From Herbiconiux gentiana (GTDB lineage: Bacteria > Actinomycetota > Actinomycetes > Actinomycetales > Microbacteriaceae), in the NCBI RefSeq assembly GCF_024978135.1, contig NZ_JANTEZ010000001.1:434001-498000 (forward strand): a DNA stretch of 64,000 bases, read 5' to 3'. Positions within the stretch are counted from its first letter, which is position 1; every line of letters begins with the position of its first letter. A program made the translations under genes and the position numbers. Shown piece after piece: positions 12,841 through 63,075 of the stretch. The notes beneath the pieces are model-generated. The model worked only from the letters and a program-made list of their open reading frames with translations, did not search any database and was not told where the DNA came from.

Positions 12841-14211
12841 TCAGCGCCCCACGCGGAAGGCGTGCCCCCGGTGGGTCTCCGGCAGGTGCGGGCCGCCCTC
12901 GGGGAAGAAGCGCTCCCGCAGCGTGTCTCCCGAGTACTCGGCCGAGGCGAGTCCGCGCTCCCGGAGGACGGGCAGCAGCAGCTCGATCAGATCGTCGTAG
13001 GTCTGAGGGGTCAGGTGCGGCTGGATCAGGAAGCCGTCGACCCCGGTGGCGGCCACGAACTCCTCGATCCGGTCGGCGACGTCGTCGGGACTCCCGACGA
13101 AGACGCTCCCGTTGATGCCCGTGCGGCGGAAGTTCTCGAGGACGTCGCGCACGAGCGGCGCGGCCTGGCCGTCGCGGCCCAGGTAGCGTTCGAGGTTCGA
13201 CTGACCCATCTCGGTGCGGGTCTGGCTGATCGGCTTGTCGGGATCCAGGGCGAGCAGGTCGATGCCGGTGTTGCCGGCGTAGATGGCTGCCGCACCTTCG
13301 TCGGTCGACATCGCCAGCATCTCCGCGTGCTTGGCCCAGGCCTCCTCGGCGGTGGGCGCCGTGATCAACAGGGCGCCGACGAGGATCTTGACGGAGTCGG
13401 CCGGTCGGCCCGCTGCGACGGCGCTCTCGCGGATGCCCCGCACGTTCGCGGCCACGACGGTGGGCTCTCCCCCGCCGACGAACACGGCCTCGGCGTTCCG
13501 GCCGGCGAACTCGCGCCCGCGCCCCGAGGCTCCCGCCTGCACGAGCAACGGGGTGCGCTGCGGCGACGGCGGCAGGTTCAGGATGCCGTCGGTGCGGAAG
13601 TACGGACCCTCGTGGTGCACGAGGTGCACCTTGTCGGGGTCGGCGTAGACACCCGCCTCGCGGTCGAGCACGAGGGCGTCGTCCTCCCATGAGCCCTCCC
13701 AGAGGGTGAGGCTGACGTCGACGTAGTCGTCGGCCATGTCGTAGCGCAGGTCGTGCCGGATGAGCTCCTTGCCCATCAGGGCGGCCGCCGTCCCGCCCGA
13801 GGAGCCGGTGACGATGTTCCAGCCGATCCGCCCGTCGGTGAAGTGGTCGAGGGTCGCGAAGCGGCGGGCGTTCGCCGCCGGCGGCTCGACGGTGGTCGAG
13901 GTGGTCAGGATGAAGCCCAGCTTCTCCGTCACGGCGGCGAGGGCCGAGACGAGCGGCATCGGGTCGCCGTGCGGGATGCCCCGGCCCTCCCGCACCGACG
14001 CCGGGATCAGCCGGCCGTCGAGGGCCGGGAAGCCATAGCTGTCCGCCAGGAAGAGGAAGTCGAGTCCCGCGTCCTCGAACTTCCGGGCCAGCGACGTCCA
14101 GTGCGAGAGCGTCGTGAACTCCGCCGAGGTGTCGTCGGGGTGCTGCCACGACGACCCGACGGTGCCATTGGGGCCGATGTACTGGAAGATGCCGAGAAGA
14201 AGGGGCTGCAT
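12841..14211 (-). CDS. FMN-dependent monooxygenase, NtaA/SnaA/DmoA family
   Basis: A 456-residue luciferase-like (LLM) two-component monooxygenase subunit that uses FMNH2 from a separate reductase. Typical family blocks are visible: LGIFQYIGPNG start, FLFLADSYG, LTTSTTVEPPAANARRFATLDH, IGWNIVTGSSGG, LVQAGASGRGREFAGRNAEAVF, and C-terminal LRERFFPEGG. Related enzymes attack chelators, sulfides or heterocycles; the substrate here is unknown. It is divergent from an XRE-cupin regulator, and a 19-bp inverted repeat overlaps its start codon. It is one of three NtaA-type paralogues in the window. Confidence 0.9.
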   Translation of the reverse strand: MQPLLLGIFQYIGPNGTVGSSWQHPDDTSAEFTTLSHWTSLARKFEDAGLDFLFLADSYGFPALDGRLIPASVREGRGIPHGDPMPLVSALAAVTEKLGFILTTSTTVEPPAANARRFATLDHFTDGRIGWNIVTGSSGGTAAALMGKELIRHDLRYDMADDYVDVSLTLWEGSWEDDALVLDREAGVYADPDKVHLVHHEGPYFRTDGILNLPPSPQRTPLLVQAGASGRGREFAGRNAEAVFVGGGEPTVVAANVRGIRESAVAAGRPADSVKILVGALLITAPTAEEAWAKHAEMLAMSTDEGAAAIYAGNTGIDLLALDPDKPISQTRTEMGQSNLERYLGRDGQAAPLVRDVLENFRRTGINGSVFVGSPDDVADRIEEFVAATGVDGFLIQPHLTPQTYDDLIELLLPVLRERGLASAEYSGDTLRERFFPEGGPHLPETHRGHAFRVGR

Positions 14212-47604: not shown

Positions 47605-49260
47605 GTGCCCCTGCGTCACCGCTCCCTCGCCCTCTCCCTCGCCGGGCTGGCCACCGCCTCCGCCCTGCTGCTGGCCGGATGCTCGGCCGACGCCGGCCCG
47701 GCCGACACCCCCTCGACCCCCGTCGCCGGCGGCACCCTCACCTACGCGACCGGCTTCGGCGAGCCGACCTGCCTCGACCCGCACGTGGGCGGCAACATGC
47801 CGCAGGCCCTCGTGGGCACCAACGTGCTCGAGTCGCTGTTCTCGCAGGACGAGACCGGGGCGATCGTGCCGTGGCTCGCCGAATCGGGTGTCGCCGCCGA
47901 CGACGGCCTCAGCTGGGACGTCACCCTCCGCGACGGGATCACCTTCACCGACGGCACACCGCTCGACGCCGCTGCGGTCGCCGCGAACGTGGCCCACATG
48001 AAGGACCCGGAGACCGCCTCCTCCACCGCGATCCTCGCCCTCGGCAAGGTCTCCTCGGTCGAGGTCGTCTCCCCCACCGTCGCCCGCTTCGTGCTGAGCG
48101 AGCCCGACAGCGCGCTGCTGGAGTCGCTCGCCCAGACCTGGCTCGCGATGGAGTCGCCGGCAGGCCTCGAGCGCGGCATGGAGGCGAACTGCGAGGCGCC
48201 CATCGGCACCGGCCCGTTCGTCTTCTCGGAGTGGGTCAAGCAGGACCACGTGACCCTCACCCGCAACGACGACTGGACCTCGGCGCCCGAGGGTTCGGCG
48301 CACGAGGGCCCGGCGTACCTCGACACGATCCAGTGGCGCTTCATCCCCGACCCGGCGACGCGCTTCGCCGCGCTGCAGTCGGGCGAGGTCGACGTGATCG
48401 ACGAGATGCAGCCCGACAACGTCGTGGCCGCGGGCGCCGACGGGAGCGGGCTCGGAGTGCTGACGGGGGCGCTGCCCGGCGCGTCGATCCGGCTCGAGCT
48501 GAACTCGGGTTACGCGCCGTTCGACGACGAGTCGGTGCGCAAGGCGTTCATCGCCGCGGCCGACGTGAACCCGGGCATCCAGAGCCTGTTCTTCGGCACC
48601 GTCGAGCGCTCGTACTCGGTGCTGTCGTCGTCGACCCCGTTCGGCGCCTCGTTCGAGGACGACTACACGATCGACGCCGACAAGGCGAACCAGCTGCTCG
48701 ACGAGGCCGGCTGGACGACCCGAGACTCGGATGGCTACCGCACCAAGGACGGCCAGCGGCTGACGGTCGACTTCCCGGTCTCGACGAACCAGTCGATCCC
48801 GGCCGAGGTCTCGCTGTTCGAGCAGATCCAGGCCACCACCAAGGCGGTCGGCTTCGACGTCGAGCTGCACCCGATGGACCTGTCGAGCTGGTACGCCGCG
48901 CTCGGCTCCTGGGACTTCGACCTGACCAGCGCGATCTACACGAAGAACTCGCCCGACGTGCTGCGCATCTTGTACGACTCGGCGAACATCATCCCCGCGC
49001 CGAGCGGGTACCACCCGAACAACGCGCACGTCTCGATCCCCGAGCTCGACGACGCGGTGACCGCCGCCGGGCGCACCACCGACCCCGACGAACGCGCCGC
49101 TCTGTACGAGACGGCGCAGAAGCTGCTCGCCGACGGTGCCTACGTGCTGCCGCTCTACGACCACCTGCAGAAGATCGGCCACGGCGACCGGGTGCAGGGG
49201 CTGTCGCTCCTGCCGACGCTGCAGATCCCGTACTTCGGCGACACCTGGGTGAAGGGGTAG
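47605..49260 (+). CDS. ABC transporter substrate-binding lipoprotein, family 5
   Basis: A 551-residue solute-binding protein of the oligopeptide/nickel (SBP5) family. It has a lipoprotein signal (LATASALLLAGC, Cys near residue 26). Mature-domain hallmarks are CLDPHVGGN, WDVTLRDGITFTDGTPLDAAAV, APIGTGPFVFSEW, RIRLELNSG-like ASIRLELNSGYAPFDD and AVTAAGRTTDPDERAALYE. It delivers peptides or other small amphipathic molecules to the permeases encoded next. GTG 47605 is used. It starts a four-gene operon. Confidence 0.93.
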   Translation: MPLRHRSLALSLAGLATASALLLAGCSADAGPADTPSTPVAGGTLTYATGFGEPTCLDPHVGGNMPQALVGTNVLESLFSQDETGAIVPWLAESGVAADDGLSWDVTLRDGITFTDGTPLDAAAVAANVAHMKDPETASSTAILALGKVSSVEVVSPTVARFVLSEPDSALLESLAQTWLAMESPAGLERGMEANCEAPIGTGPFVFSEWVKQDHVTLTRNDDWTSAPEGSAHEGPAYLDTIQWRFIPDPATRFAALQSGEVDVIDEMQPDNVVAAGADGSGLGVLTGALPGASIRLELNSGYAPFDDESVRKAFIAAADVNPGIQSLFFGTVERSYSVLSSSTPFGASFEDDYTIDADKANQLLDEAGWTTRDSDGYRTKDGQRLTVDFPVSTNQSIPAEVSLFEQIQATTKAVGFDVELHPMDLSSWYAALGSWDFDLTSAIYTKNSPDVLRILYDSANIIPAPSGYHPNNAHVSIPELDDAVTAAGRTTDPDERAALYETAQKLLADGAYVLPLYDHLQKIGHGDRVQGLSLLPTLQIPYFGDTWVKG

Positions 49261-49267
49261 CGGGCGG

Positions 49268-50281
49268 ATGCGCGGCCGGGGTCCGGGCGTGAGCCGGGCC
49301 CTCCGGGTGGCGGCTGCTCTCGGCGGTGCGGTGTTCGTGCTCTGGGCGGCGGCCACGCTGACGTTCTTCGGGCTGCGGCTGATCCCGGGCGACCCGGCGC
49401 AGGCCGTGCTCGGCGGGCCGGGATCGCAGGCGAGCGCCGAGGCGCTGGCCGCCGTGCGGGCCGAGTACGGGTTCGACCAGCCGATCTGGGTGCAGTACCT
49501 GCGCTACCTCGGCCGTCTCGTCACGGGTGACCTCGGCACCTCGTACTCGCAGCGGCAGTCGGTCGCCTCGATCATCGGCAGCCAGATCGGCGGCACGCTG
49601 CTGCTCGCGGTGCTCGCGCTCGCGCTCGCCTGGCTGCTCGCCCTCGGGCTCGCCGTCTGGTCGACCCGCGGCGGACGGCTCGCCGCCGCGGTGGGGTCGG
49701 GCCTCGAGATCGTGGCGGCCGCCGTGCCGCACTTCTGGCTCGCGACCGTGCTGGTGCTGGTGTTCAGCACGACGCTGCGCTGGTTCCCGGCGGTGAGCAC
49801 GGCCGGGCCGGCCGGGCTGGTGCTGCCGGTGCTCACCCTCGCCCTGCCGCTAGCCGGGTTCCTCGGGCAGGTGATGCGCGAGTCGGTGCTCGACGCCCTC
49901 GAGGCGCCGTTCGTGCTCTCGGCCCGCGCCCGCGGCGAGAGCGAGCCGGGCGTTCGGTGGCGGCACGTGCTGCGGCACGGTGCACTGCCCGGCATCGCGC
50001 TCTCGGGCTGGGCCTTCGGCTGGCTGATCTCGGGGGCCGTGGTGGTCGAGACGATCTTCGCCCGGCCCGGGCTCGGACGCACGCTACTGAACGCGGTGCA
50101 GCTGCGGGACGTGCCGCTCGTGATCGGGGTCGTGCTCGTCGTGGCGGTGGGGTACGTGGTGATGACGCTGCTGACCGACGTGGTGTCCCGCATCGCGGAC
50201 CCGCGGCTGGCGGGTACAGGGCGGGGCTCCGGGCGGGGTCGCACTCGCGATCTGGCGCAGGTTCCGGCGGTGCGCGCATGA
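49268..50281 (+). CDS. ABC transporter permease (DppB type)
   Basis: A 337-residue inner-membrane permease with six hydrophobic helices. The N-terminal pattern is FFGLRLIPGDPAQAVLGG, typical of DppB/OppB, and the cytoplasmic EAA-like loop is FVLSARARGESEPGVRWRHVLRHGALPG. It begins eight bases after the binding-protein gene. It pairs with the downstream DppC-type permease, and its stop overlaps that start (ATGA). Confidence 0.93.
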   Translation: MRGRGPGVSRALRVAAALGGAVFVLWAAATLTFFGLRLIPGDPAQAVLGGPGSQASAEALAAVRAEYGFDQPIWVQYLRYLGRLVTGDLGTSYSQRQSVASIIGSQIGGTLLLAVLALALAWLLALGLAVWSTRGGRLAAAVGSGLEIVAAAVPHFWLATVLVLVFSTTLRWFPAVSTAGPAGLVLPVLTLALPLAGFLGQVMRESVLDALEAPFVLSARARGESEPGVRWRHVLRHGALPGIALSGWAFGWLISGAVVVETIFARPGLGRTLLNAVQLRDVPLVIGVVLVVAVGYVVMTLLTDVVSRIADPRLAGTGRGSGRGRTRDLAQVPAVRA

Positions 50282-51153
50282 GCCTGCCTGCGGTGTCGAC
50301 GGTGGCCGCCGTGGCCCCCGACGGGCGCGGCGCATCCACCGTGCGGCGCGGGCGACGGATGCTCGGCCCTGCCCAGTGGGTGGCCGTCGCCGTGCTGGCG
50401 CTGCTGCTTCTCGCGGCCGTCGCCCCCGCGGTGCTCGCGCCGGGCGACCCGTTCGCGATCGCCCCCACGGACGCCTTCCTGTCGCCGCGGTGGGGGCATC
50501 CGCTCGGCACCGACGAGTCGGGCCGGGACATCTACACCCGCGTGGTGCACGGAGCCGGCACCTCGCTCGTGATCGGGGTCGCCGCAACGGCGATCGGCAT
50601 CGTGCTCGCGCTCGTGCTGGGGCTCGCAGCCGCGCTCGGCGGGCGGGTCGTCGACTTCGGCGTGAACCGGCTCCTCGAGGTGCTCTTCGCCTTCCCGGGG
50701 CTGCTGCTGGCACTGCTCGTCATCACGGTCTACGGGCCGGGCATCGTCACCTCGACCATCGCGGTGGGGCTGGCGACGGCGCCGGGGTACGCACGGATCA
50801 TCCGCGCGCAGGCCCGCTCGGTCGCCACCGCCCCCTACGTCGAGGCGGCGGTGGTGCTCGGGCGGTCGCCGGGGCGCATCCTCGCGCGGCACATCCTGCC
50901 GAACGCCGTGCTGCCCGTGATCGTGCTCGTGACCCTCGGCGTGGGGCAGGCGATCGTCTGGGCGGCGGCGCTCAGCTACCTCGGCCTCGGGGCCGAGCCG
51001 CCCGCCGCGGAGTGGGGCGCGATGCTCTACGCGGGCAAGAACTACCTGGCGACGGCGTGGTGGATGACGTTCTTCCCGGGCCTCGCGATCGTGCTGGCGG
51101 CCGCGGCGACGACGGTGCTCGGGCGGGCGCTGCAGAAGCGGGGGCCGCGATGA
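50278..51153 (+). CDS. ABC transporter permease (DppC type)
   Basis: A 291-residue permease of the DppC/OppC type. It has an N-terminal cytoplasmic stretch and a helix before the periplasmic HPLGTDESGRDIYTRVVHG, then five helices. The ATPase-contact loop is YVEAAVVLGRSPGRILARHILPNA. Overlaps of four bases with both neighbours indicate translational coupling. The longer open frame upstream only mirrors the preceding gene. Confidence 0.93.
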   Translation: MSLPAVSTVAAVAPDGRGASTVRRGRRMLGPAQWVAVAVLALLLLAAVAPAVLAPGDPFAIAPTDAFLSPRWGHPLGTDESGRDIYTRVVHGAGTSLVIGVAATAIGIVLALVLGLAAALGGRVVDFGVNRLLEVLFAFPGLLLALLVITVYGPGIVTSTIAVGLATAPGYARIIRAQARSVATAPYVEAAVVLGRSPGRILARHILPNAVLPVIVLVTLGVGQAIVWAAALSYLGLGAEPPAAEWGAMLYAGKNYLATAWWMTFFPGLAIVLAAAATTVLGRALQKRGPR

Positions 51154-52856
51154 GCGCCGAGCCGCGGCCCGGCGTCCCGGCGCCTGAGGTGCTCGTGCGG
51201 GTCGAGGGCCTGCGGGTGGGGTTCGGCAGGCGCGGGGCGCGACGGGGGCCGGCCGTCGTCGACGGGGTGTCCTTCACGGTCGAGGCCGGGCGGGCGCTCG
51301 CGATCGTGGGCGAGTCGGGATCGGGCAAGTCGGTCACCGCCCGATCGCTGGTGGGGCTCGCGGGCCCCGGGGCGTGGACGTCGGCCAGGGCGCTGGAGGT
51401 GGGCGGAGCATCCGTTCTCGGACCCGTCGGCGCGGACGGCGCCGGCCGGGGCCTGTCGGCCGCCGCGTGGCGACGGATCCGCGGCGGCGAGGTGGGGCTG
51501 GTCGTGCAGGACGCGCTGGTGTCGCTCGACCCGCTGCGCCCGATCGGGCGGGAGATCGGCGACGCGCTGCGGCTGCACACGCGACTGTCGGCGTCCGAGC
51601 GGCGGGCGCGGGTGCTGTCGCTGCTCGACTCGGGCGGGATGCCCGAACCCGCCTCACGCCTCCACCAGCGCTCGGGCGAGCTCTCGGGCGGGCTGCGCCA
51701 GCGCGCGCTGATCGCGTCGGCGCTGGCTGCGTCACCGCGCCTGCTGATCGCCGACGAGCCGACGACGGCGCTGGACAGCACCGTGCAGGCGCAGATCCTC
51801 GCGCTGCTGGAGAGCGTGCGCGAGGCCGGCACCGGGCTGCTGTTCATCAGCCACGACCTCGCCGTGGTGTCGCGCATCGCCGACGACGTGCTCGTCATGC
51901 GGGCCGGCCGCGTCGTGGAGTCGGGGCCGGTGGCGCAGGTGCTCGGCGACCCGCAGCACGACTACACGAAGGCGCTGCTGCGCGCGGTGCCGACGGGGGT
52001 GCCGCGCGGGGTGCCGCTCGCCTGGCCCGGTGCGGGGTCGGGCGCCAGAACGGCTCCGGCGTCGGCTCCAGCCGTCGCGGCGGCGAGGGGCGCGTCGACG
52101 GCACCCCGCCCGGAGACGGCGCCCGTGCTCGAGCTCGACGGGGTGTCGAAGACGTTCGGGGGCCGGCTTGCGGTCGTCGACGTCACCCTGTCGCTCGCCG
52201 GCGGCAGCACGCTCGGGCTGGTCGGCGAGTCGGGCTCGGGCAAGACGACCCTCGCCCGCATCGCCCTCGGCCTCACCCCACCCGACACCGGCTCGGTGCG
52301 GCTCGACGGGCGGCACTGGGCGCCCGGTTCCGAGCGCGACCGCCGCTCCCGCCGCCCGCTGCTCGGCGCCGTCTACCAGGACGCCCTCTCGTCGTTCGAC
52401 CCGCGGCTGACCGTGCGGCAGATCCTCGCGGACGCCCTCCGCGGAGCATCCGCCCCCCGCCCCCTCGCCGAGCTGCTCGACGACGTCGGTCTCGCCCCCT
52501 CGATCGCCGAGGCTCGCCCCCTCGAGCTCTCGGGCGGACAGCGCCAGCGTGTGTCGATCGCCCGTGCGCTCGCGCCCTCGCCCCGCGTGATCGTGCTCGA
52601 CGAGCCGGTGTCGGCGCTGGACGTGTCGATCCAGGCGCAGATCCTCGACCTGCTCGACCGCCTGCAGCGCGAGCACGGTCTCGCGTACCTGTTCATCTCG
52701 CACGATCTCGGGGTGGTGCAGCACATGAGCGACACGCTCGCCGTCATGAAGGACGGCCGGATCGTCGAGCACGGGCGGTCGTCGGCCGTCTTCGACCGCC
52801 CGGCCCACCCGTACACCCAGGCGCTGCTCGCCGCTGCCCCCCGGCTTCACCCCTGA
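51150..52856 (+). CDS. ABC transporter ATPase, fused DppD/DppF
   Basis: A 568-residue protein carrying two complete nucleotide-binding domains. NBD1 has Walker A GESGSGKS near 54, signature LSGGLRQR near 177 and Walker B LLIADEPTTALD. NBD2 has Walker A GESGSGKTT near 357, signature LSGGQRQR and VIVLDEPVSALD. A 50-residue Ala/Pro linker joins them. One chain thus replaces the usual DppD and DppF subunits and powers the two permeases upstream. It ends a few bases before the convergent monooxygenase gene. Confidence 0.94.
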   Translation: MSAEPRPGVPAPEVLVRVEGLRVGFGRRGARRGPAVVDGVSFTVEAGRALAIVGESGSGKSVTARSLVGLAGPGAWTSARALEVGGASVLGPVGADGAGRGLSAAAWRRIRGGEVGLVVQDALVSLDPLRPIGREIGDALRLHTRLSASERRARVLSLLDSGGMPEPASRLHQRSGELSGGLRQRALIASALAASPRLLIADEPTTALDSTVQAQILALLESVREAGTGLLFISHDLAVVSRIADDVLVMRAGRVVESGPVAQVLGDPQHDYTKALLRAVPTGVPRGVPLAWPGAGSGARTAPASAPAVAAARGASTAPRPETAPVLELDGVSKTFGGRLAVVDVTLSLAGGSTLGLVGESGSGKTTLARIALGLTPPDTGSVRLDGRHWAPGSERDRRSRRPLLGAVYQDALSSFDPRLTVRQILADALRGASAPRPLAELLDDVGLAPSIAEARPLELSGGQRQRVSIARALAPSPRVIVLDEPVSALDVSIQAQILDLLDRLQREHGLAYLFISHDLGVVQHMSDTLAVMKDGRIVEHGRSSAVFDRPAHPYTQALLAAAPRLHP

Positions 52857-52860
52857 GGGC

Positions 52861-54225
52861 TCAGGCGCCGGCCTCGAGGTTCTTGGTGGACGGCCGGAAG
52901 CCCGGGTGCGGGCCGGGGAAGCCGAGCCGCTCCCGCAGGGTGAGCGATCGGTCCGGCTGCGTCCACGCGCCCCGGGCCTCCAGCTCGGGCAGCACCAGGG
53001 CGATGAAGTCCTCGTAGGCGCCGGAGTCGCCGAAGGTGGGCTCCAGCAGGAAGCCGTCGAGGTCGGCGGTCTCCGCCGTCTCGATCAGCTCCTCGGCGAC
53101 CTCGGCCGGCGAGCCGGTGATGACGAAGCCCCGCTCCTGCACCCGGAAGGCGTCGAGCACGTCCTGCACCGTGCGGACGCCGGGCATCGACCGGTAGCGG
53201 TCGAGCGGCGTGTGGCCCTGGCCGGTGCCGGCGATGTCCTCGATGGGCATCGAGCGATCGAGCGCCCGGAGGTCGATCCCCGTGAAGCCCGCGAAGAGCA
53301 CCGCGGCGTCGTCCATCGAGAACTGCTCCTCGAGTTCCCGGCGCCGCTCGAGCGCCTCCTGTCGCGTGGGTGCCACGGTGACGGTGACCCCGCTGATGAT
53401 CTTGAGGTCGTGCGGGTCGCGGCCGGCGGCGGCCACGCGCGAGCGGATGTCCGTGGCGGCGATCCGCGCCTGCTCGACGGTCTGGCCCTGGATGAACATG
53501 GCTTCGGCGTTGCGCGCCCCGAAGTCGCGGCCGCGGCCGGACATGCCCGCCTGGAACAGCACCGGCGTGCGCTGCCGACCCGGCGGCACCTTGAACAGGC
53601 CGTGGCTCGAGAAGTGCTCGCTTCGGTAGGCGAGCGGCCGGATGCGCGAGGGGTCGACGAGCGTGTTCGACTCGCGGTCGAACACGACGGCGTCGTCGTC
53701 CCAGACGTCCTCGAGCAGGCTCCGCGCGAGGTCGACGAACTCGTCCGCGACGTCGTAGCGGGCGTCGTGGTCGAAATGGGTGATGCCGAAGAGCTCTTCG
53801 GTCACCTGGGCGGTGCTGCCCGTCACCACGTTCCAGCCGATGTGACCGTTCGTGAAGGCGTCGAGGGTCGCGAAGCGACGGGCCGTGGGGAAGGGCTGCT
53901 CGAGCGACGTCGACGAGGTCACGACGATGCCGAGCGACGGCGCCGCCTGGGAGAGGGCGCTGACGAGCAGCAGCGGGTCGTAGCCCGGGAACAGGATCCC
54001 GTGGGTCAGCACCTCCTCGGGCACCTCGCCGTCGATCTGCGGGTAGCCGTAGCTGTCGGCGAACAGGATGAAGTCGAACCCCGCCGCGTCCAGCGTCTTC
54101 GCGAGGCCGATCCAGTACTCCGGGCTCCCGTAGCGGTCACCGCGACCGTTCGGGTGTCGCCAGGTCGGCACCCCGTTGGAGGGTGTGAGGATCTCGAACA
54201 CGCCGAGGGAGAGAGGCTTGACCAT
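52861..54225 (-). CDS. FMN-dependent monooxygenase, NtaA/SnaA/DmoA family
   Basis: A 454-residue flavin monooxygenase subunit related to, but distinct from, the one at 12841-14211. Shared blocks are LGVFEILTPSNGVPTWRHPNG, FILFADSYGYPQ, TSSTSLEQPFPTARRFATLD, IGWNVVTGSTAQV, LFQAGMSGRGRDFGARNAEAMF and LRERLGFPGPHPG. It needs FMNH2 from a reductase not seen nearby. The upstream region carries a perfect LacI-type palindrome 44 bases before the start, so it likely belongs to the adjacent lacI regulon. Confidence 0.9.
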   Translation of the reverse strand: MVKPLSLGVFEILTPSNGVPTWRHPNGRGDRYGSPEYWIGLAKTLDAAGFDFILFADSYGYPQIDGEVPEEVLTHGILFPGYDPLLLVSALSQAAPSLGIVVTSSTSLEQPFPTARRFATLDAFTNGHIGWNVVTGSTAQVTEELFGITHFDHDARYDVADEFVDLARSLLEDVWDDDAVVFDRESNTLVDPSRIRPLAYRSEHFSSHGLFKVPPGRQRTPVLFQAGMSGRGRDFGARNAEAMFIQGQTVEQARIAATDIRSRVAAAGRDPHDLKIISGVTVTVAPTRQEALERRRELEEQFSMDDAAVLFAGFTGIDLRALDRSMPIEDIAGTGQGHTPLDRYRSMPGVRTVQDVLDAFRVQERGFVITGSPAEVAEELIETAETADLDGFLLEPTFGDSGAYEDFIALVLPELEARGAWTQPDRSLTLRERLGFPGPHPGFRPSTKNLEAGA

Positions 54226-54268: not shown

Positions 54269-54280
54269 TAAAACGTTTTA
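54269..54280. promoter_or_regulatory. LacI-type operator 1
   Basis: A perfect 12-bp palindrome TAAAACGTTTTA with the central CG typical of LacI/GalR operators. It lies upstream of the monooxygenase and overlaps the stop codon of the lacI gene. A near-identical copy lies at 59275-59286, before the binding-protein operon. Confidence 0.75.
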
Positions 54281-55306
54281 CACAGTTGTAACGCGGCGCG
54301 TCGAGCCCCGACGCACGAGGTTCACGGGGAAGACCTCGACCCGGGGTGCTCCTCCGTTCGCGACGCGGTCGACGAGCTGCTCGAAGGCGCTCCGCGCCAT
54401 GGCTGCGGCGTCCTGGCGCAGCGTGGTGAGCCCGGGGGTGATGCGCGAGGCCCAGCTGATGTCGTCGAATCCGCAGATGAGCAGGTCGTCGGGGACGACC
54501 CGGCCGAGGTCGTGGCACTCGAAGAGGGCGCCGATGGCCTGGTTGTCGGTGCAGGCGAAGAGCGCGTCGATCTCGGGGTGCTGCGCGAGCATCCGTCGCA
54601 CGCCCTCGCGGCCGCCCTCGAAGGAGTAGGGGGCGGTCACCCGGTGCAGCCGGGACGGGTCGATCCCCCGGTCGGACAGGCCCGCCGAGAAGCCGGCGCC
54701 GCGCTGCGTGGCGGTGGTCAGGGTGCCCGGGCCCGCGAGCAGACCGAAGACGGTGCCACCCGCCTCCACCAGGTGCTCGGCGGCGGCGCGCCCGCCCCCG
54801 ACGTTGTCGGAGTGGACTCCGCCGATGCCCGGCAGGTCGAAGCCCTCGTCGACCGCGACGATCGGCAGCCCGTGCGGGAACGCCGGATCGGACGCCGTGG
54901 CTCTCGGGTTGGTGGAGAACAGCAGCACGCCGTCGACCGAGCCGGCGAGCCTCGTCAGCGAGGCGGCCTCGCGGCCGGCATCGAACGCCGTGTTGACGAG
55001 CGAGAGCTGGAAGCCGGACTCGTCGGCCAGGCCCTCGATGACGCCGACCATGCCCGCCCAGAACGGATTGGTCACGTCGGGGATGACGAGACCGATGCTC
55101 TGGTGCAGCCCGGTTCGGAGCGACCGGGCGACGCCGTTCGGGCGGTAGCCGAGCTCGGCGGCCGACCGCCGCACCCGCTCGATCGCGCCGGGGCCCACCC
55201 GGCGTGCCCCGGTCAACGCGTTGCTCGCGGTGGCGATGCTCACCTGCGCCCGTTCGGCGACGTCGCGGAGCGTGACCGGGCCGCTGCCGGCCGGTTCGAT
55301 CTTCAT
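54278..55306 (-). CDS. LacI-family transcriptional repressor
   Basis: A 342-residue regulator. The N-terminal HTH and hinge read TLRDVAERAQVSIATASNAL then ARRVGPGAIERVRRSAAELGYRPNGVARSLR. The periplasmic-binding-protein-like sensor has IGLVIPDVTNPFWAGMVGVIE and DALFACTDNQAIGAL. Family members leave DNA when a small molecule binds. It begins ten bases after the permease gene, as the last gene of the ABC operon. The palindromes at 54269 and 59275 are probable operators, which would also give autoregulation. Confidence 0.93.
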   Translation of the reverse strand: MKIEPAGSGPVTLRDVAERAQVSIATASNALTGARRVGPGAIERVRRSAAELGYRPNGVARSLRTGLHQSIGLVIPDVTNPFWAGMVGVIEGLADESGFQLSLVNTAFDAGREAASLTRLAGSVDGVLLFSTNPRATASDPAFPHGLPIVAVDEGFDLPGIGGVHSDNVGGGRAAAEHLVEAGGTVFGLLAGPGTLTTATQRGAGFSAGLSDRGIDPSRLHRVTAPYSFEGGREGVRRMLAQHPEIDALFACTDNQAIGALFECHDLGRVVPDDLLICGFDDISWASRITPGLTTLRQDAAAMARSAFEQLVDRVANGGAPRVEVFPVNLVRRGSTRRVTTV

Positions 55307-55316
55307 ACGCCGAACG

Positions 55317-56128
55317 CTACCAGCGCACGATCAGCCGTTCGAGGAGGCCGACGAGACCGAGCAGCGCGAGGGTCGTCAGCGCCGAGAAGAAGATCGCCGC
55401 CCACATCTGCGGGAGGTTCAGATAGGTGGTCGCCATCACGATCACCGCACCGATGCCCTTGCTCGACCCGGTGAACTCGGACACCACGGCACCGATGACG
55501 GCCGCGGTCACCGAGAGCCGCGCGCCGGCGAACAGGTACGGGAGGCTCGACGGCACGCGCAACCGGAAGAAGATCTCCGTCTTCGACGCCGACATCGCGT
55601 CGAAGACCTCGAGGGCCTGCGGATCGACGGCGCGGAGCCCCGTGATCGAGTTGATCAGGGTGGGGAAGAACGCGCTGAGCGCCGCGACGATGACGTGCGG
55701 GATCTGGTTGAACCCGAACGCCACCACGAGAGCCGGGGCGATCGCGACGATGGGCGTGACGTTCAGCAGCAGGGCGACGGGCATGATCGCGGCCCGGAGG
55801 AAGCGGAAGTGCACGATCGCCGACGCCAGTAGGAGCGCCACCGCGACCCCGATGACGAAGCCGAGGAGCGCCGCCTGCAGCGTCACGGCCAGGTTCTCGA
55901 GGTAGAACTCCGGCCGCCCCGCGATGTCGGCGATCACGTCCTGCATCGGCGGGAGCACGCTCTTGAAGGTCGCCGCCGCCCACTGCCAGGCGATGGCGAG
56001 CAGCACGAACAGCAGCAGCGGCGCACCGACCGTGAGCAGCGCCCCACCGGTGCGGGGCGACAGGCGGCGTCGGCTGCGGGCGAGGGGCACCGCGCTCACC
56101 GCGGGGTTCAGCGGATCGATTCCGACGG

Positions 56129-56132
<4 letters not shown>
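55317..56132 (-). CDS. ABC transporter permease (SsuC/TauC/ThiX type)
   Basis: A 271-residue permease with about six helices and the EAA loop EVFDAMSASKTEIFFRLRVPSSLPYLFAG. This class transports sulfonates, taurine, nitrate-like anions or pyrimidine precursors. Its start overlaps the ATPase stop by four bases. It works with the ATPase and the NMT1-like binding protein of the same operon. Confidence 0.93.
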
Positions 56133-56943
<811 letters not shown>

Positions 56944-56947
<4 letters not shown>

Positions 56948-58026
56948 GCGGCGTCCTTCCGATGGGTGGTGGTCGAGAACGAGGGGCCGAGCACGACGAT
57001 CTTGCCGAAGAACGCGTCGGACTCCAGCCGCGCCTCGGCCGCGGGCAGCTGCTCGAACGGCCAGACGCTGTCGAGCACCACGTCGAAGCGGCCCGACCCG
57101 AAGCCGGCGACGGCCGAGGCCATGTCCGCCCGGCTGTAGCTGCCGTGGCCGATGATGCTGCGGCCGCGCTGATAGAGATCGGGCAGATGAAGTTCGGTGT
57201 CGAGGCCGTCGGTGGTGCCGGAGAGCACGACGCGGCCACCCGCCCGGGTGGCCCGCAGGGCCTGCCCGAGGAAGCGCCCGCCCACATGGTCCCAGACGAG
57301 GTCGGCACCCCGGCCACCGGTGAGCGACAGCACCTCGGCGACCCAGTCGTCGGTGGCCGAGCGGTCGATCACCCGCACCCGGCCATCGCGTCCGGCCCGC
57401 TCCTTCTTGGCGGCACCCGAGACGAGGGCGATCACCTCGGCCCCGTGGGCGAGCGCGATCTGGATGCCCGCCGCGCCGAGGCCCGACCCGGCGCCCGGGA
57501 TGACCACGGTCTCCCCCGAACGCAGGCGTCCGGCCCCTAGGAGCCCACGCCAGGCGGACGCCCCCGCCACCGGCACGGCGGCGAAGCGGGCGAGGGAATC
57601 CTGGTCGTCGAGGGCGACGTCGACCACGGTGCAGTTGCGCTCGGGCACCGTGACGAGCTCCGCCATGCCGCCGTCCCGCGTCGAGCCGATCGTCTGGAAC
57701 GCGTCGCAGTAGGTGGGGGTCTCGGCCAGGCACAGGGCGCACTCGCCGCAGCTGACCACGGGGTCCACCAGCACGACCGCGCCGAGCAGGTCGCCCGGGG
57801 TGCCGGCTCCGACGGCCACCACCTCGCCGATCAGGTCCATGCCCGCCACGTGCGGCACGGACATGCCCGGGATGACGGGTTCGCGCCGCTGGAGGACGTC
57901 GAGGCGGTTGAGCGCCACCGCGAGCATCCGCACCACCACCTCGTCGTCGGCCGGCTCGGGTGGGGCGACCTCGGTCAGCCTCCGCACCTCCGGCCCGCCG
58001 AAACCGGTCTGGAGCCACGCTCTCAC
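56944..58026 (-). CDS. Zinc-type alcohol dehydrogenase / quinone oxidoreductase-like
   Basis: A 360-residue medium-chain dehydrogenase. The structural-zinc cysteines are in CGECALCLAETPTYC. Catalytic-site elements include HVAGMDLIGEVVAVG, and the Rossmann motif is GAGSGLGAAGIQIA. It probably oxidises or reduces an alcohol or aldehyde derived from the imported compound. GTG 58026 overlaps the TGA of the binding-protein gene (GTGA), placing it second in the ABC operon, an unusual insertion of an enzyme between binding protein and ATPase. Confidence 0.88.
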
Positions 58027-59141
58027 GGAGCGGGCCAGATCAACTCGGTGCCGTCGTGGATCGCCTCGATGAAGCTCGGGTCGATCGCCGCCGCCACGTC
58101 GGGCTTCGCCTTCACGAGATCGAACTGCACCAGCATGTCGGCCTCCGCTGTCCACTGCTCGACCGTCTCGCCGCCAATGGGCAGACCGTCGGGCTGGCTC
58201 TCGTCGATCAGCCCCACCTCGGTGGCCCAGCGGGCGCGGCTGGACTCGAGGTCGTAGCCGGCGTCGGAGAGCGCCTCGGCGTAGGACAGCGCTTCGTCGA
58301 GGTTCGCGTCCGACTCGTTGATCCAGTCGTACGAGTAGAGGCTGGCCCGCAGGAAGTCCTCGACCGCGGTCGGGTGCTCCTCCTTGAACGTGTTGTTGAC
58401 GATCTGCGTGTTGAAGGCCGACTCGATGCCGTACTCGGCCGGGTCCCACTCCGTGATGTCGAAGCCCTGCGCCTTCAGCGCCAGCGGCTCGTTCGACTTG
58501 TAGCCGGTGAGCGCCTGCACCTGGTCGTTCGGGAGGATCGTCGGGTCGTAGCCGACCGAGACCCAGTTGATCGTCGTCGGGTCGACGCCCTCCTCGAGGA
58601 ACATGGCCTGGATCTGGGGCGGGATGGCGCCCTTGTAGCCGGCGGTCAGGCCGCTGAAGTCGGCCAGCGAGGCCGGCCCGCCGTCGGTCATCGTCATGAG
58701 CGTGATCGCCACGGTGTTGCCGTAGGTGGCGACACCCGAGATGTCCGCACCGTTGTCGATCGCGACCAGCACGTCGGAGGGGCTGCCCACGCCGGCGAAC
58801 TGGGCGGTGCCCGCGCTGACGAGTTGGGCGTTGTTCGAACCGGGCTGCAGCGTGACGTCGAGGCAGAGGTCCTCGAAGACCCCGCGTTCCTTCGCCGTGA
58901 TCACGTCGAGCAGCCCGGCGGAGGCGACGTAGCCGAACGACGTGAGGAACGTGATGGGGCCGGCCGCCCGGTTCTCGGCGCAGCGCTCGGCGCTGATCAG
59001 GTCGCTGCCGGCGGACGCCGAGGCGGTCGATTCCGACGCGGTGCTCGATCCCGAGCATCCGGCCAGCAACAGGACCGAGGCGGCGGAGAGCGCGGCGAGT
59101 GCCGTGACGGGTGCGGTCTTCGTGAGCGGTGCAGGTGACAT
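58023..59141 (-). CDS. ABC substrate-binding lipoprotein, NMT1/THI5-like
   Basis: A 372-residue binding protein of the SsuA/THI5-like family, with a lipoprotein signal (LSAASVLLLAGC). The fold-typical start is ITFLTSFGYVASAGLLDVITAKERGVFED, and the ligand-loop region reads QLVSAGTAQFAGVGSPSDVLVAIDNGADI. Relatives bind hydroxymethylpyrimidine, riboflavin precursors or sulfonates. ATG 59141 lies six bases after GGAAGG; the open frame upstream is unsupported. It is the first gene of the five-gene operon SBP-dehydrogenase-ATPase-permease-lacI. Confidence 0.92.
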   Translation of the reverse strand: MSPAPLTKTAPVTALAALSAASVLLLAGCSGSSTASESTASASAGSDLISAERCAENRAAGPITFLTSFGYVASAGLLDVITAKERGVFEDLCLDVTLQPGSNNAQLVSAGTAQFAGVGSPSDVLVAIDNGADISGVATYGNTVAITLMTMTDGGPASLADFSGLTAGYKGAIPPQIQAMFLEEGVDPTTINWVSVGYDPTILPNDQVQALTGYKSNEPLALKAQGFDITEWDPAEYGIESAFNTQIVNNTFKEEHPTAVEDFLRASLYSYDWINESDANLDEALSYAEALSDAGYDLESSRARWATEVGLIDESQPDGLPIGGETVEQWTAEADMLVQFDLVKAKPDVAAAIDPSFIEAIHDGTELIWPAP

Positions 59142-59274
59142 ACGAGGCCTTCCGGAGGGCGCCGGGGAGATCCCGGCTGACTGAGGGGGGAATTTCGTGG
59201 AGCCGGCGTGCCCGTGATGGAGCTGCAGGAGCGATCGCGTGTTCGGCACACTAACAACACCCCGGGCCCGGATG

Positions 59275-59286
59275 TAAATCGTTTTA
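59275..59286. promoter_or_regulatory. LacI-type operator 2
   Basis: TAAATCGTTTTA, one base different from the perfect palindrome at 54269-54280, about 130 bases upstream of the binding-protein start in an AT-rich stretch. A likely second site for the LacI protein encoded at the end of this operon. Confidence 0.65.
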
Positions 59287-59362
59287 TTTCGAGCGTGTAA
59301 AAGGTAGATCACGGGCACTTTGCGCCGCCCGCCCCACGGGCGTCGTGGCGCAGGGTGGGGTG

Positions 59363-59785
59363 ATGGACGAGACCGAGAGCACCCGATACGGAGCAGCGAG
59401 CCCGGAGGCCGCCGCCTCGGCCGCCCTCGCCGAGCACCTCGGCACGCCGCTCCGGCCGCGACGGCTGACCCTTCCCGACGGAACCTCGGTCGAGGTCGAG
59501 GCGATGGACTCGGAGGGCACGGTGATCGCTCAGTACGTGCTGAACGGCGGCGCCGTGAAGTCGAGCCTCCGCAACAAGGTCGCGGCCGATCTGTTCAAGC
59601 TCGTCTGGGTGCGTCACGCCCTGGCACCGGATGCGCGCGCGGTGCTCTGTGTCAGCCCGACGGTCGCCGCCGTGCTCGGTCGGCGCGGCTGGCTCAGCGC
59701 CGCGGCACGCGACCTCCGCATCACGGTGGTCGTGCTGCTCGAATCCGGCCGGATCGAGGAGCTGTCCTCTCCCCCGGGGCCGTAA
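59363..59785 (+). CDS. Hypothetical protein
   Basis: A 140-residue soluble protein without a recognised family. Patterns include LTLPDGTSVEVEAMDSEG, NKVAADLFKLVWVRHAL and a hydrophobic beta-like end (RITVVVLLESGRIEEL). The alternation of a conserved Asp/Glu and Lys around GTVIAQY resembles some nuclease-like folds, but the evidence is too thin to name one. ATG 59363 follows AGGGTGGGG. It is divergent from the LacI-controlled operon and precedes the RutA-like gene by 134 bases. Confidence 0.6.
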   Translation: MDETESTRYGAASPEAAASAALAEHLGTPLRPRRLTLPDGTSVEVEAMDSEGTVIAQYVLNGGAVKSSLRNKVAADLFKLVWVRHALAPDARAVLCVSPTVAAVLGRRGWLSAAARDLRITVVVLLESGRIEELSSPPGP

Positions 59786-59919
59786 TCCGCCCGTAACGAT
59801 CGGTTCCTATACTCGGTCCCAGGCTGGACTCCGCGACGCAACCCCGGTTCGCATCGCACGCTTCCCACCGTGTCCTGGTTCGTCGGCGTCCGCCGGCGCA
59901 CTCGAACTGGAGGAGCATC
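59786..59919 (+). promoter_or_regulatory. Promoter and possible structured leader of RutA-like operon
   Basis: A good -10 hexamer TATACT lies at 59809-59814, without a clear -35. The predicted leader of about 100 bases contains complementary arms CCAGG (59819-59823) and CCTGG (59874-59878) and several C/G-rich internal stems, then GGAGGAG before the ATG at 59920. It could be an RNA switch, but I do not recognise the class. Confidence 0.4.
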
Positions 59920-60987
59920 ATGTCCGCATCACCCCGGGAGTACGGCGTCTTCCTGCCGAACGCCGCCGGCGGCTGGCTGGTCTCGACGACCGCGCCGTAC
60001 CCGCCCGCCGACTACGACCACAACAAGCAGATCGCCCGGGTGGCCGAGGAGATCGGCCTTGACTTCGTGATGGCCATGGCCAAGTGGCGCGGCTTCGGCG
60101 GCGCGACCGACCACTGGGGCGAGACCATCGAGTCGATGACCATGATGGCCGGCATCGCCGAGGCCACCGAGCGGGTGAAGATCTGGGCGACCGTGCACGC
60201 GAACATGCAGAACCCCGCCTTCGCCGCCAAGGTCTTCACCACGCTGCAGCAGATCAGTCACGGCCGGGCCGGGATGAACATCGTGAACGGCTCCTACGCC
60301 GACGAGTTCGAGCAGATGGGCATCTGGGACGCGGGGATGACCAAGGAGGAGCGCTACCGGATGACGTCGGAGTGGGCCGAGCTCGTCACGCGGCTCTGGA
60401 GCGAGGACTCCGTGACGCACGCCGGCGAGTTCTACACGCTCACCGACTGCCAGTCCCGGCCGCATCCGGAGACGAGGCCCGAGATCATCAACGCCGCGAC
60501 CTCGCCGGCCGGGCGGGTCTTCCAGGCGCAGTACGCCGACGGGGCGTTCCTCGGCGCCGACACGCTCGAGGACATGAGGATCTCGTCGCTGGACGTGCAC
60601 GACCGTGCCGCCGCGCTCGGCCGATCGGTCAAGACCTACGCGATGCTCACCGTCGTGCTCGGTGACACGGATGCGGAGGCCGCCGCCCGGGCCACGGAGT
60701 ACGGCCGCGGGATCGACCGGGTCGCACTGGCGAACATGCGCAGGTCGTGGGGCATGCCCGAGGAGCGGGCGCTCGCCTGGGCGGAGGGAGCCGACGGGGA
60801 GCAGGCGTTCCAGACCGTGTACGTGGCGGGGGGTCCGTCCCGGGTGGTCGAGCACATCAGCACCGTCATGGACACGGCCGAGCTCGACGGGTTGATGCTG
60901 ATCTTCCCCGACTATCTGGCCGATCTGCCCGCGTTCGGCGAGGCCGTGCTGCCGGCGCTGCGCGATCTCGAGGCGGTGCGGGCGTGA
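59920..60987 (+). CDS. RutA-like flavin monooxygenase
   Basis: A 355-residue luciferase-like monooxygenase. The blocks YGVFLPNAAGGWLVS, MAKWRGFGGATDHWGETIES, GRAGMNIVNGSY and YADEFEQMGIWD resemble pyrimidine monooxygenase RutA, which opens the uracil ring with FMNH2 and oxygen to give ureidoacrylate. It is followed by a RutB-like hydrolase, strengthening that reading. A different cyclic amide could be the true substrate. ATG 59920 follows GGAGGAG. Confidence 0.85.
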   Translation: MSASPREYGVFLPNAAGGWLVSTTAPYPPADYDHNKQIARVAEEIGLDFVMAMAKWRGFGGATDHWGETIESMTMMAGIAEATERVKIWATVHANMQNPAFAAKVFTTLQQISHGRAGMNIVNGSYADEFEQMGIWDAGMTKEERYRMTSEWAELVTRLWSEDSVTHAGEFYTLTDCQSRPHPETRPEIINAATSPAGRVFQAQYADGAFLGADTLEDMRISSLDVHDRAAALGRSVKTYAMLTVVLGDTDAEAAARATEYGRGIDRVALANMRRSWGMPEERALAWAEGADGEQAFQTVYVAGGPSRVVEHISTVMDTAELDGLMLIFPDYLADLPAFGEAVLPALRDLEAVRA

Positions 60988-61075
60988 GCGGCGTGGGCTC
61001 GGCGGGCACGGGCGAGGCGGGCACGGGCGGCGTGGGCTCGCCGGTGTGGGCGGGGCGGGCATGAGCGGCGTGGGC
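60985..61075. repeat. GC-rich direct repeats between RutA-like and RutB-like genes
   Basis: Repeated GAGCGGCGTGGGC and GGCGGGCACGGGCG units fill the 73-base gap and run into the first codons of the hydrolase gene. The two TGAGCGGCGTGGGC copies are about 75 bases apart. Confidence 0.7.
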
Positions 61076-61744
61076 GGGGCGGATGCTCGGGACGCCGTGC
61101 TGCGGGTGGAGGACGTGCGCGCTGCGGCACTGCGCGCGGCCGGGCATCCGGTGCTCGTGGTCGTCGACGTGCAGCGCGACTTCGCCGACCCGGAGCTGCT
61201 GGCCGGCTGGGGTGTCGACGACGCGGGACTGGCCGCCGTCGACGCCGCCATCACGCGCTGCGACGAGCTGGTCTCGGCCGCACGGCGACTCGACGTGCCC
61301 GTGGTCTGGGTCGAACTCGCCTACGACCCCGCCCGGCCGTGGCGGGCCAGCGCCTGGCTGCAGACGGGTGACCCCGACTCCCCCACCGACTCCTTCCCGT
61401 GCGTGGCGGGCAGCGCGGGGGCCGACTGGTGGCGCCTGGATCCGGCACCGGGAGAGGCCCGGGTGCGCAAGCGCTTCTACAGCGGGTTCGCCGACACCTC
61501 GCTCGCCGCTGTGCTCGAGGAGCTGCAGGCCGGCTGGCTGGTGGTCGCCGGGCTGACGACCGAGTGCTGCGTGCAGGCGACGGCGACGGACGCGGTGCAG
61601 CACGACCTGCCCGTCGTCGTCGCCCGGGACGCGACCGCCGCCTACAGCGTCGCGCTGCACGACGCGGCGCTCGCGAGTCTTGCGCTGAACGTCGCCGACG
61701 TGCGGGGCAGCTCGGAGATCGAAGCGCTCTGGAGCCCCGCATGA
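61061..61744 (+). CDS. Isochorismatase-fold cysteine hydrolase, RutB-like
   Basis: A 227-residue hydrolase with the full triad of its family: Asp in VVVDVQRDF (about residue 34), Lys in VRKRFYSGF (about 138) and Cys in TTECCVQAT (about 170). RutB and related enzymes cleave ureidoacrylate or other amides; the KxRYSGF-like block is also seen in RutB. It lies between the RutA-like gene and a third monooxygenase, whose ATG overlaps its stop. The start is uncertain: ATG 61061 is used, GTG 61046 is in frame. Confidence 0.88.
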   Translation: MSGVGGADARDAVLRVEDVRAAALRAAGHPVLVVVDVQRDFADPELLAGWGVDDAGLAAVDAAITRCDELVSAARRLDVPVVWVELAYDPARPWRASAWLQTGDPDSPTDSFPCVAGSAGADWWRLDPAPGEARVRKRFYSGFADTSLAAVLEELQAGWLVVAGLTTECCVQATATDAVQHDLPVVVARDATAAYSVALHDAALASLALNVADVRGSSEIEALWSPA

Positions 61745-63075
61745 CCGGCATGCACACCGCTTTCGACCTGTCGTTCGCCCACACCGAGGGGCGCTGGGCA
61801 CGGCCCGGCTCCTGGATCGGCGCCGGCTTCCCCGACGTGCAGGTGTACCAGGAGATCGCGCGCACGGCCGAACGAGCCGGAGTAGACCTGCTCTTCTTCG
61901 GCGACGGAAGCGGCATACCCGACACCTGGCGCGGGTCGATGGACGCGGCCTTGGAGTGGGGCATCCAGTGGCCCCGCCACGACATGAGCCCGGTCGTCAC
62001 CTCGATGGCGGCGGTGACGGAGCACATCGGGTTCGGGCTGACCTACTCCTCGACCTTCCTGCACCCGTTCACCGTCGCGCGGCTGCTCAACTCGCTCGAC
62101 CACGTCACGGCCGGGCGCATCGCGTTCAACGTCGTCGCGTCGGCGCGGAGTGCCGACGCCGCCAACTACGGCTTCGACGAGCGGATGGACCATGACGAGC
62201 GCTACGACCGGATGAGCGAGTTCATGACCGTGTGCCGCGAGCTCTGGGCGTCGGTGCCGGCCTCGGCCATCATCGCCGACCGGGTCACAGGGCGGTTCGC
62301 CGACCCCGCGCAGATCAGCGCGATCGACCACGTCGGGCGGTACTTCCGGGTGAAGGGGCCCCTCGCCAGCGTGCCGAGCCCCCAGGGCTCACCCGTGCTC
62401 GTGCAGGCGGGGAACTCCCCCAAGGGCATCGCCACTTCGGCGTCGTTCGTCGAGCTGGTCTTCGGCTTCGGCGCGAGCGTCGCCGGCCAGCAGCGCCATC
62501 GGGCGGCGCTGGATGCGGCGCTCACGAGCGAGGGCCGGGACCCGGCCTCGGTCGGCATCCTCTGGGCGACGCAGGCGATCGTCGGGCGGAGCGCCCTGGA
62601 AGCCGCGTCGCGCCGGGACGAGGTGGCGGCGTTCTGGAACGAGGAGGCGGTGGGGGCGTTCCTGTCGCACAACGTCGGCTTCGACTTCTCGACGCTGCCC
62701 GCGAGCTTCACCCTCGACGAGCTGGTGGACGAGGTCAAGCGGGTGCAGGGCGCCCAGGGCGGGTTCGTCGGGGCACTCGTCGCCGAGCTCGGAGCGGAGA
62801 CGACGCTCACCCGCACCGAGCTCTTCGAGCACGGCTGGCGTCACGCGACCGGGCTCGACCACACTCTCTGCGGCACCGCGGCCTCGATCGCGGACCAGCT
62901 CGAGGAGAACTTCGCCGCCACGGGTGGGCACGGCGGCTACATGTTCTCGAGCCCGCTCGCCGCGCCGTCGGGGGCGGCCGATCTCGCCGAGCTGCTCGTG
63001 CCGGAGCTGCGGCGGCGGGGCGCCCTGGCGCCTCGGTATCCGGGGGCGACGCTGAGGGAGAACCTCAGGGGCTGA
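61741..63075 (+). CDS. FMN-dependent monooxygenase, NtaA/SnaA/DmoA family
   Basis: A 444-residue flavin monooxygenase subunit, more divergent than the other two NtaA-type proteins. Blocks are FDLSFAHTEGRWARPGSWI, LLFFGDGSGIPDTWRGS, LTYSSTFLHPFTVARLLNSL, IAFNVVASARSADAANYGF, LVQAGNSPKGIATSASFVEL and C-terminal YMFSSPLA. It is translationally coupled to the hydrolase (ATGA), so RutA-like, hydrolase and this enzyme form one operon. It may oxidise the ring-opening product or a related substrate. Confidence 0.9.
   Translation: MTGMHTAFDLSFAHTEGRWARPGSWIGAGFPDVQVYQEIARTAERAGVDLLFFGDGSGIPDTWRGSMDAALEWGIQWPRHDMSPVVTSMAAVTEHIGFGLTYSSTFLHPFTVARLLNSLDHVTAGRIAFNVVASARSADAANYGFDERMDHDERYDRMSEFMTVCRELWASVPASAIIADRVTGRFADPAQISAIDHVGRYFRVKGPLASVPSPQGSPVLVQAGNSPKGIATSASFVELVFGFGASVAGQQRHRAALDAALTSEGRDPASVGILWATQAIVGRSALEAASRRDEVAAFWNEEAVGAFLSHNVGFDFSTLPASFTLDELVDEVKRVQGAQGGFVGALVAELGAETTLTRTELFEHGWRHATGLDHTLCGTAASIADQLEENFAATGGHGGYMFSSPLAAPSGAADLAELLVPELRRRGALAPRYPGATLRENLRG

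Follow-up and report, generated by a model that had tools for sequence, protein, structure and literature searches.

The stretch of DNA analysed here (the window, 64,000 nucleotides) derives from Herbiconiux gentiana (contig NZ_JANTEZ010000001.1, positions 434,001 to 498,000), whose genome comprises 3.85 Mb; among named relatives, Herbiconiux sp. VKM Ac-1786 stands closest, with a 93% identical LLM1. The window carries a set of genes arranged around a divergent promoter (Table 1), of which HYP (a small conserved protein), LLM1 (a flavin monooxygenase), HYD (a cysteine amidohydrolase) and LLM2 (a second oxygenase) are read rightward, the genes of HYD and LLM2 overlapping in ATGA. Leftward follow a binding lipoprotein, a zinc-type dehydrogenase, the ATPase and the permease of an importer, a LacI-type regulator and then a further oxygenase, LLM3. 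An earlier note on this DNA had named the binding protein, a RutA-like oxygenase, an Asp-Lys-Cys hydrolase and an NtaA-type oxygenase between positions 58023 and 63075; all of these are intact open frames at those positions and profile searches confirmed their families. The limits, however, were drawn too narrowly, since the unit extends to about 52861 and includes LLM3, the LacI-type gene, permease, ATPase and alcohol dehydrogenase as well as HYP. At equivalog level, none of the curated NCBIfam or Pfam families covers LLM1, HYD or HYP, and no description of this cluster was found in the open-licence literature.

Table 1. Features of the gene unit, with window coordinates.
Feature	Position	Strand	Basis or remark
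LLM3, NtaA/DmoA-family flavin monooxygenase	52861..54225	-	TIGR03860; closest solved relative riboflavin lyase RcaE
LacI-type operator TAAAACGTTTTA, perfect palindrome, upstream of LLM3	54269..54280		predicted from sequence
LacI-family regulator	54278..55306	-	Pfam LacI, Peripla_BP_3; nearest NCBIfam models RbsR, GntR, UriR
ATP-binding cassette (ABC) importer permease	55317..56132	-	PF00528; conserved LLM1 neighbour
ABC importer ATPase	56129..56947	-	PF00005; conserved LLM1 neighbour
Zinc-type medium-chain (MDR) alcohol dehydrogenase or quinone reductase	56944..58026	-	PF08240/PF00107
Substrate-binding lipoprotein, NMT1/THI5 type, nearest ThiY	58023..59141	-	PF09084
LacI-type operator TAAATCGTTTTA, divergent promoter region	59275..59286		predicted from sequence
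HYP, small conserved protein, PD-(D/E)XK-like (XisH-like) predicted fold	59345..59785	+	better start ATG 59363
LLM1, RutA-sister flavin monooxygenase, proposed ring opening by oxygenation	59920..60987	+	NCBIfam RutA best model; residues; trees, AU tests
HYD, isochorismatase-fold cysteine amidohydrolase, proposed to hydrolyse the ring-opened product	61046 (or ATG 61061)..61744	+	PF00857; D-K-C triad
LLM2, NtaA-family flavin monooxygenase, DszA side	61741..63075	+	TIGR03860; PDB; tree

The arrangement of these genes is not due to chance, since dozens of genomes from actinobacteria show an identical gene order. Conservation was followed in 200 Microbacteriaceae genomes, in a species-level scan with a single genome for each species and in 74 loci with enough flanking sequence. 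Among the family genomes, close LLM1 (at least 57% identity) and close HYD (at least 44%) proteins co-occur, side by side, in the same 15 genomes. The species scan returned 358 LLM1 relatives, the best 80 of them all from Actinomycetota, and carriers include Streptomyces, Nocardiopsis, Actinoplanes, Amycolatopsis and many Microbacteriaceae. The importer lies beside LLM1 in 70 of the 74 loci; HYD is found near LLM1 in 63 (directly after it in 61), HYP in 61, LLM2 in 58 (directly after HYD in 56) and a flavin reductase near the cluster in 51. The dehydrogenase, the LacI-type regulator and LLM3 are additions of the Herbiconiux type, and a close ortholog of the dehydrogenase stands beside LLM1 only there. 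The designation of the locus as an island, in the sense of a recent acquisition, had to be abandoned, because its base composition matches that of the remainder of the window and the gene set is conserved across the Actinomycetota. In two Herbiconiux relatives the HYP-LLM1-HYD-LLM2 operon is opened by a short-chain dehydrogenase/reductase gene (L029, 12008-12805; L057, upstream of HYP), which the window strain does not have at this position.

Among 18950 NCBIfam models compared, the best model for LLM1 was RutA (TIGR03612, 233 bits), followed by SfnG (173 bits versus a cut-off of 383), with SsuD reaching 82 bits (cut-off 518), and the best solved relatives were likewise RutA (E 2e-55) and then SfnG (8e-37). 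LLM1 is nevertheless not RutA proper, as its score lies far under the RutA cut-off of 498.3 and a clade with strict RutA alone was rejected in the approximately unbiased (AU) test (p-AU 0.001). In the tree its neighbours are, in this order, proteobacterial plasmid enzymes, enzymes of clusters with TenA and a deformylase, and RutA. Nor is LLM1 a sulfone or sulfonate oxygenase: a clade with SfnG and SsuD was rejected (p-AU 0.0041), and it is this test that carries the separation, since the fork parting the RutA-side group from the sulfur enzymes is only moderately supported (85/60). The active-site residues and the importer point the same way. In RutA, T105, N134, V136 and F224 bind dioxygen or adjoin it (PMC7662398). 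These four residues, as well as M67 and K69, are identical in 38 of 38 LLM1 sequences, the position of RutA L65 being occupied by Met; SfnG has Ala, Gln and Arg at the positions of T105, M67 and K69. On the substrate side, W139, which in RutA borders the substrate cavity (PMC10005588), is replaced in every LLM1, by Ser in 23 and by Ala in 15 sequences, and RutA A107 is His, as in the TenA-linked clade. We infer from these residues that LLM1 would perform the oxygen chemistry of RutA on a different and probably bulkier ring.

HYD belongs to the isochorismatase family (PF00857, 124 bits). Its triad D36/K137/C170 is invariant, so that equivalents of RutB D24, K133 and C166 are all present, and the K..YSGF motif is as in RutB. 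Its score with the RutB model (TIGR03614) of 44 bits, tied with biuret hydrolase as the best NCBIfam match, is far under the cut-off of 377.95, and HYD falls into a separate clade, which excludes an assignment as RutB. The closest named solved relative is N-carbamoylsarcosine amidohydrolase; the named relatives of HYD thus act on ureido or biuret groups, a hint that the product of LLM1 may carry a ureido group. An assignment as nicotinamidase was rejected as well: PncA and its relatives form a clade of their own (100/99), and, in a comparison based on the published metal ligands of the PncA active site (PMC5806882), the histidines in and after the QDWH motif have no counterpart in HYD. As the HYD tree is badly rooted through one poor row (L162), no sister of HYD is claimed. 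Kinship of the oxygenase with sulfone or sulfonate enzymes and of the hydrolase with nicotinamidases had been named beforehand as the outcome that would speak against a Rut-like reading, and neither was found.

The likeness to the Rut system of E. coli (rutABCDEFG) is therefore one of kind: both have a RutA-type flavin monooxygenase with the O2-pocket, M67 and K69 residues, which needs a flavin reductase, and after it an amidohydrolase of the isochorismatase fold. In contrast to Rut, rutC, rutD, rutE, rutF and rutG are lacking at the window locus, as the earlier note had observed, an ABC importer takes the place of RutG, and additional NtaA-type oxygenases and a LacI-type regulator are present. 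A true uracil or thymine route, with the ABC importer in place of RutG, unlinked reductases in place of RutF and HYD as ureidoacrylate amidohydrolase, would agree with the retained M67, K69 and O2-pocket residues of LLM1 and with the triad and motif of HYD. The missing rutC and rutD say little in this respect, because E. coli uses uridine without them (PMC8113886). We consider such a route quite unlikely, however, given the scores of both enzymes far under the RutA and RutB cut-offs, the rejected clade with strict RutA and the change of W139 to Ser or Ala. Free uracil is probably not the substrate, as the LLM1 pocket lacks this Trp on the substrate side, and it becomes less likely still because a second cluster of the host genome (L047; G000:C10, about 665900-674800) encodes an enzyme far more similar to RutA (380 bits), in which W139 is retained. 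Another pyrimidine-type ring is thus a likelier substrate than uracil or thymine in particular. What stands of the proposed Rut-like pathway is the oxidative opening of a cyclic amide served by its own importer; what does not stand is the equation of LLM1 and HYD with RutA and RutB. The unit is a new form of Rut-kind chemistry and not a member of the Rut system.

The binding protein matches PF09084 (NMT1/THI5) with 99.8 bits, well above the gathering cut-off of 20.5, and fails the SsuA model (TIGR01728; 45.4 bits versus 163.5). A profile search of the PDB returned only ThiY, 4nmy (according to its deposit, a binding protein in complex with thiamin), THI13 and THI5. The AlphaFold2 (AF2) model of the protein (mean predicted confidence, pLDDT, 88.7) gave ThiY as best Foldseek match (3ix1, E 3e-22); ranks 1 to 23 were taken by ThiY, thiamin-binding protein and THI5, apart from one unnamed Bordetella protein, and the sulfonate binders SsuA and TauA first appeared at rank 24. 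Sequence profile and predicted fold point to pyrimidines as the cargo of the importer. ThiY of the ThiXYZ importer is the closest solved binding protein by both sequence and fold, but identity in the fold comparison is 24% and no thiamin pyrophosphate (TPP) riboswitch occurs at the cluster; TPP and flavin mononucleotide (FMN) riboswitch elements were found neither in the window nor in L033, L084 or L049. These results also bear on a role in sulfur scavenging of the SfnG/SsuD type, in which an SsuABC-like importer would bring in sulfones or sulfonates. The importer genes are indeed SsuB/SsuC-like, relatives carry an SsuE-like reductase, LLM2 stands near DszA and SfnG is the second-best model for LLM1. 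Yet the binding protein is closer to ThiY than to SsuA, LLM1 retains the T105, M67 and K69 equivalents missing from SfnG and does not group with the sulfur enzymes, and it is not obvious what an amidohydrolase would do in desulfonation, which makes this explanation highly improbable.

LLM2 and LLM3 are, by their scores of 362.6 and 387 bits with TIGR03860 (cut-off 279.7), true members of the NtaA/DmoA family. DszA is an enzyme that cleaves C-S bonds. The best solved match of LLM2 is DszA (5tlc, E 5e-68), on whose side it also falls in the tree, together with its counterpart from the second cluster of the host genome, while LLM3 is nearest to the riboflavin lyase RcaE (5w48, E 7e-87). Both are distant relatives on long branches. 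LLM3 has an operator of its own, and the two predicted operators frame three transcription units. The motif TAAAWCGWTTTA is present at only two places genome-wide, both at this unit; the chance expectation of operator matches in the window after shuffling was 0, and sites of this kind occupy matching places in the Herbiconiux-type loci L029, L030, L031 and L056. This pattern of predicted operators is the one expected of a local LacI regulon of three transcription units, and the LacI-family protein is probably the repressor of the whole unit.

The operator common to LLM3 and LLM1 and the proximity of LLM3 to riboflavin lyase would fit degradation of a flavin, an alloxazine or another N-substituted fused pyrimidine, in which LLM3 would remove the N-side chain, LLM1 open the pyrimidinedione and HYD cut the ureido group, in line with the ureido and biuret hydrolases (N-carbamoylsarcosine amidohydrolase, RutB, biuret hydrolase) nearest to HYD. 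We regard this as very unlikely, since most actinobacterial copies of the cluster lack LLM3 and the known lumichrome pathway opens the pyrimidine hydrolytically, without a RutA-like enzyme (PMC12746152). That pathway itself was rejected as an identity of the locus, its published genes being hydrolytic and different from the present set.

Outside the actinobacterial family, the nearest clade to LLM1 comes from proteobacterial plasmids (A. baumannii DB053, Paraburkholderia graminis PHS1), where the monooxygenase gene shares an operon with those of a cysteine hydrolase, an M20 hydrolase of the ArgE/DapE type and a flavin reductase; no study of these operons was found. Their monooxygenase is 44-47% identical to LLM1, but M20 replaces LLM2 and a major facilitator superfamily (MFS) transporter replaces the ABC importer. 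The next clade beyond adjoins TenA, formylaminopyrimidine deformylase, RidA and a ThiY-like importer. The RutA-like enzymes of Rhizobium daejeonense, Paracoccaceae La 6 and Pantoea SOD02 are about 40% identical to LLM1 and show the same exchanges of W139 to Ser and A107 to His, and two of the three have a ThiY-like importer; the TenA/deformylase-linked clusters differ in carrying TenA, deformylase, RidA and an alpha/beta hydrolase and in lacking HYD and LLM2, and Pantoea SOD02 has the same oxygenase type without thiamin genes. Thiamin-pyrimidine compounds are accordingly the most attractive specific candidate for the substrate, albeit a tentative one. Degradation of thiamin or of its pyrimidine half (hydroxymethylpyrimidine, formylaminopyrimidine), with LLM1 opening the pyrimidine and LLM2 perhaps cutting the sulfur-bearing thiazole part, would account for the closest solved relatives of the binding protein, for the shared departures of the LLM1 pocket from RutA, for the TenA, deformylase and deaminase-type amidohydrolase genes beside the near sister clade and for the grouping of LLM2 with DszA. 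We still rate it as unlikely, as the actinobacterial cluster lacks TenA, deformylase and deaminase, and the missing TPP riboswitch, while compatible with catabolism, lends no support. A dedicated actinobacterial pathway for the oxidative breakdown of thiamin or its pyrimidine half, with uptake by a ThiY-like importer, opening of the pyrimidine by a RutA-sister oxygenase, and an amidohydrolase and, for the sulfur-bearing part, a DszA-like oxygenase as further enzymes, appears unlikely. Well-characterised catabolism was named only for B6, NAD and riboflavin in a riboflavin paper of 2025 (PMC12746152).

Most likely the unit imports a substituted cyclic amide of the pyrimidine type and opens its ring oxidatively; this substrate class is suggested by the kinship of LLM1, the binding protein and HYD. 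The analysis itself shows which genes are present and conserved, the sequences of the operators, the relationships of the proteins and their conserved residues. The transport, LacI regulation, reactions, reaction order and substrate that we infer would run as follows. The locus would act as a self-contained catabolic unit under its LacI-type regulator, the ABC importer with its ThiY/THI5-type lipoprotein taking up the cyclic amide. LLM1, as a two-component monooxygenase supplied with FMNH2 by a separate reductase, would attack a ring carbonyl via a flavin-N5-(hydro)peroxide, by which the C-N bond is broken and the ring opened. HYD, as a metal-free Asp-Lys-Cys amidohydrolase, may then cut the exposed amide or ureido group, and LLM2, in Herbiconiux also LLM3, may make further oxygenative C-S or C-N cuts in a side chain or second ring. 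To this simplest reading, in which uptake, ring opening through an N5-peroxide and hydrolysis are joined by additional oxygenative cuts, we assign a probability of roughly 60%. Several points weigh against it. No characterised member of the cluster was found, and the flavin reductase must come from elsewhere, because the cluster of the window strain has none. Some Nocardiopsis and Actinacidiphila clusters lack LLM2 or are reduced to importer and LLM1, and the downstream steps vary, since several clusters of Nocardiopsis have lost LLM2 and some both HYD and LLM2. The class of THI5-type binding proteins accepts many ligands, and residues of the Thr105 and Asn134 type do not fix the substrate, as they are common to much of the N5-peroxide class.

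The flavin-N5-peroxide class, of which RutA is the hallmark, has few known members and substrates. Next to RutA stands a whole conserved family, to which an importer, a hydrolase and one or two further oxygenases are joined. The sister clusters that include TenA and formylaminopyrimidine deformylase suggest a further use of RutA-type chemistry, on the pyrimidine of thiamin.

HYP found no match in Pfam or NCBIfam; its AF2 model (pLDDT 89.6) resembles XisH (2inb, E 2e-4), and the usual position of the catalytic lysine of PD-(D/E)XK nuclease-like proteins is not Lys. The gene stays linked to the cluster even where gene order differs.

The second cluster of the host genome, L047, also contains the LLM2 counterpart (56%), an asparaginase-like protein of 556 aa, two flavin reductases, an MFS transporter, a GntR regulator and a binding protein that matches no family; an Agrobacterium vitis plasmid (L052) carries a comparable set. 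At the loci L043, L044 and L046 a THI5-type importer occurs together with a hydrolase resembling RutB (128 bits in L043) and an asparaginase-like protein of 550-567 aa, with no RutA-like genes nearby. In L054 and L174, RutA-like enzymes adjoin TenA, formylaminopyrimidine deformylase or a related amidohydrolase, RidA and a ThiY-like importer, which makes a proteobacterial cluster for thiamin-pyrimidine catabolism plausible; a related RutA-like cluster in Pantoea (L172) has no thiamin genes. On a Cupriavidus necator plasmid (L171), a RutA-like gene is accompanied by genes for RidA, an ABC importer and its binding protein, a Rieske oxygenase and its reductase, and a formaldehyde dehydrogenase, which suggests an N-methylated pyrimidine-type compound as substrate.

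Elsewhere in the window, a fourth NtaA-type oxygenase (12841-14211) shares 47% identity with riboflavin lyase RcaE, and a peptide/nickel-type ABC importer (47605-52856), both ATPases of which are fused in one 568-aa gene, ends 4 bases from the convergent LLM3 gene.

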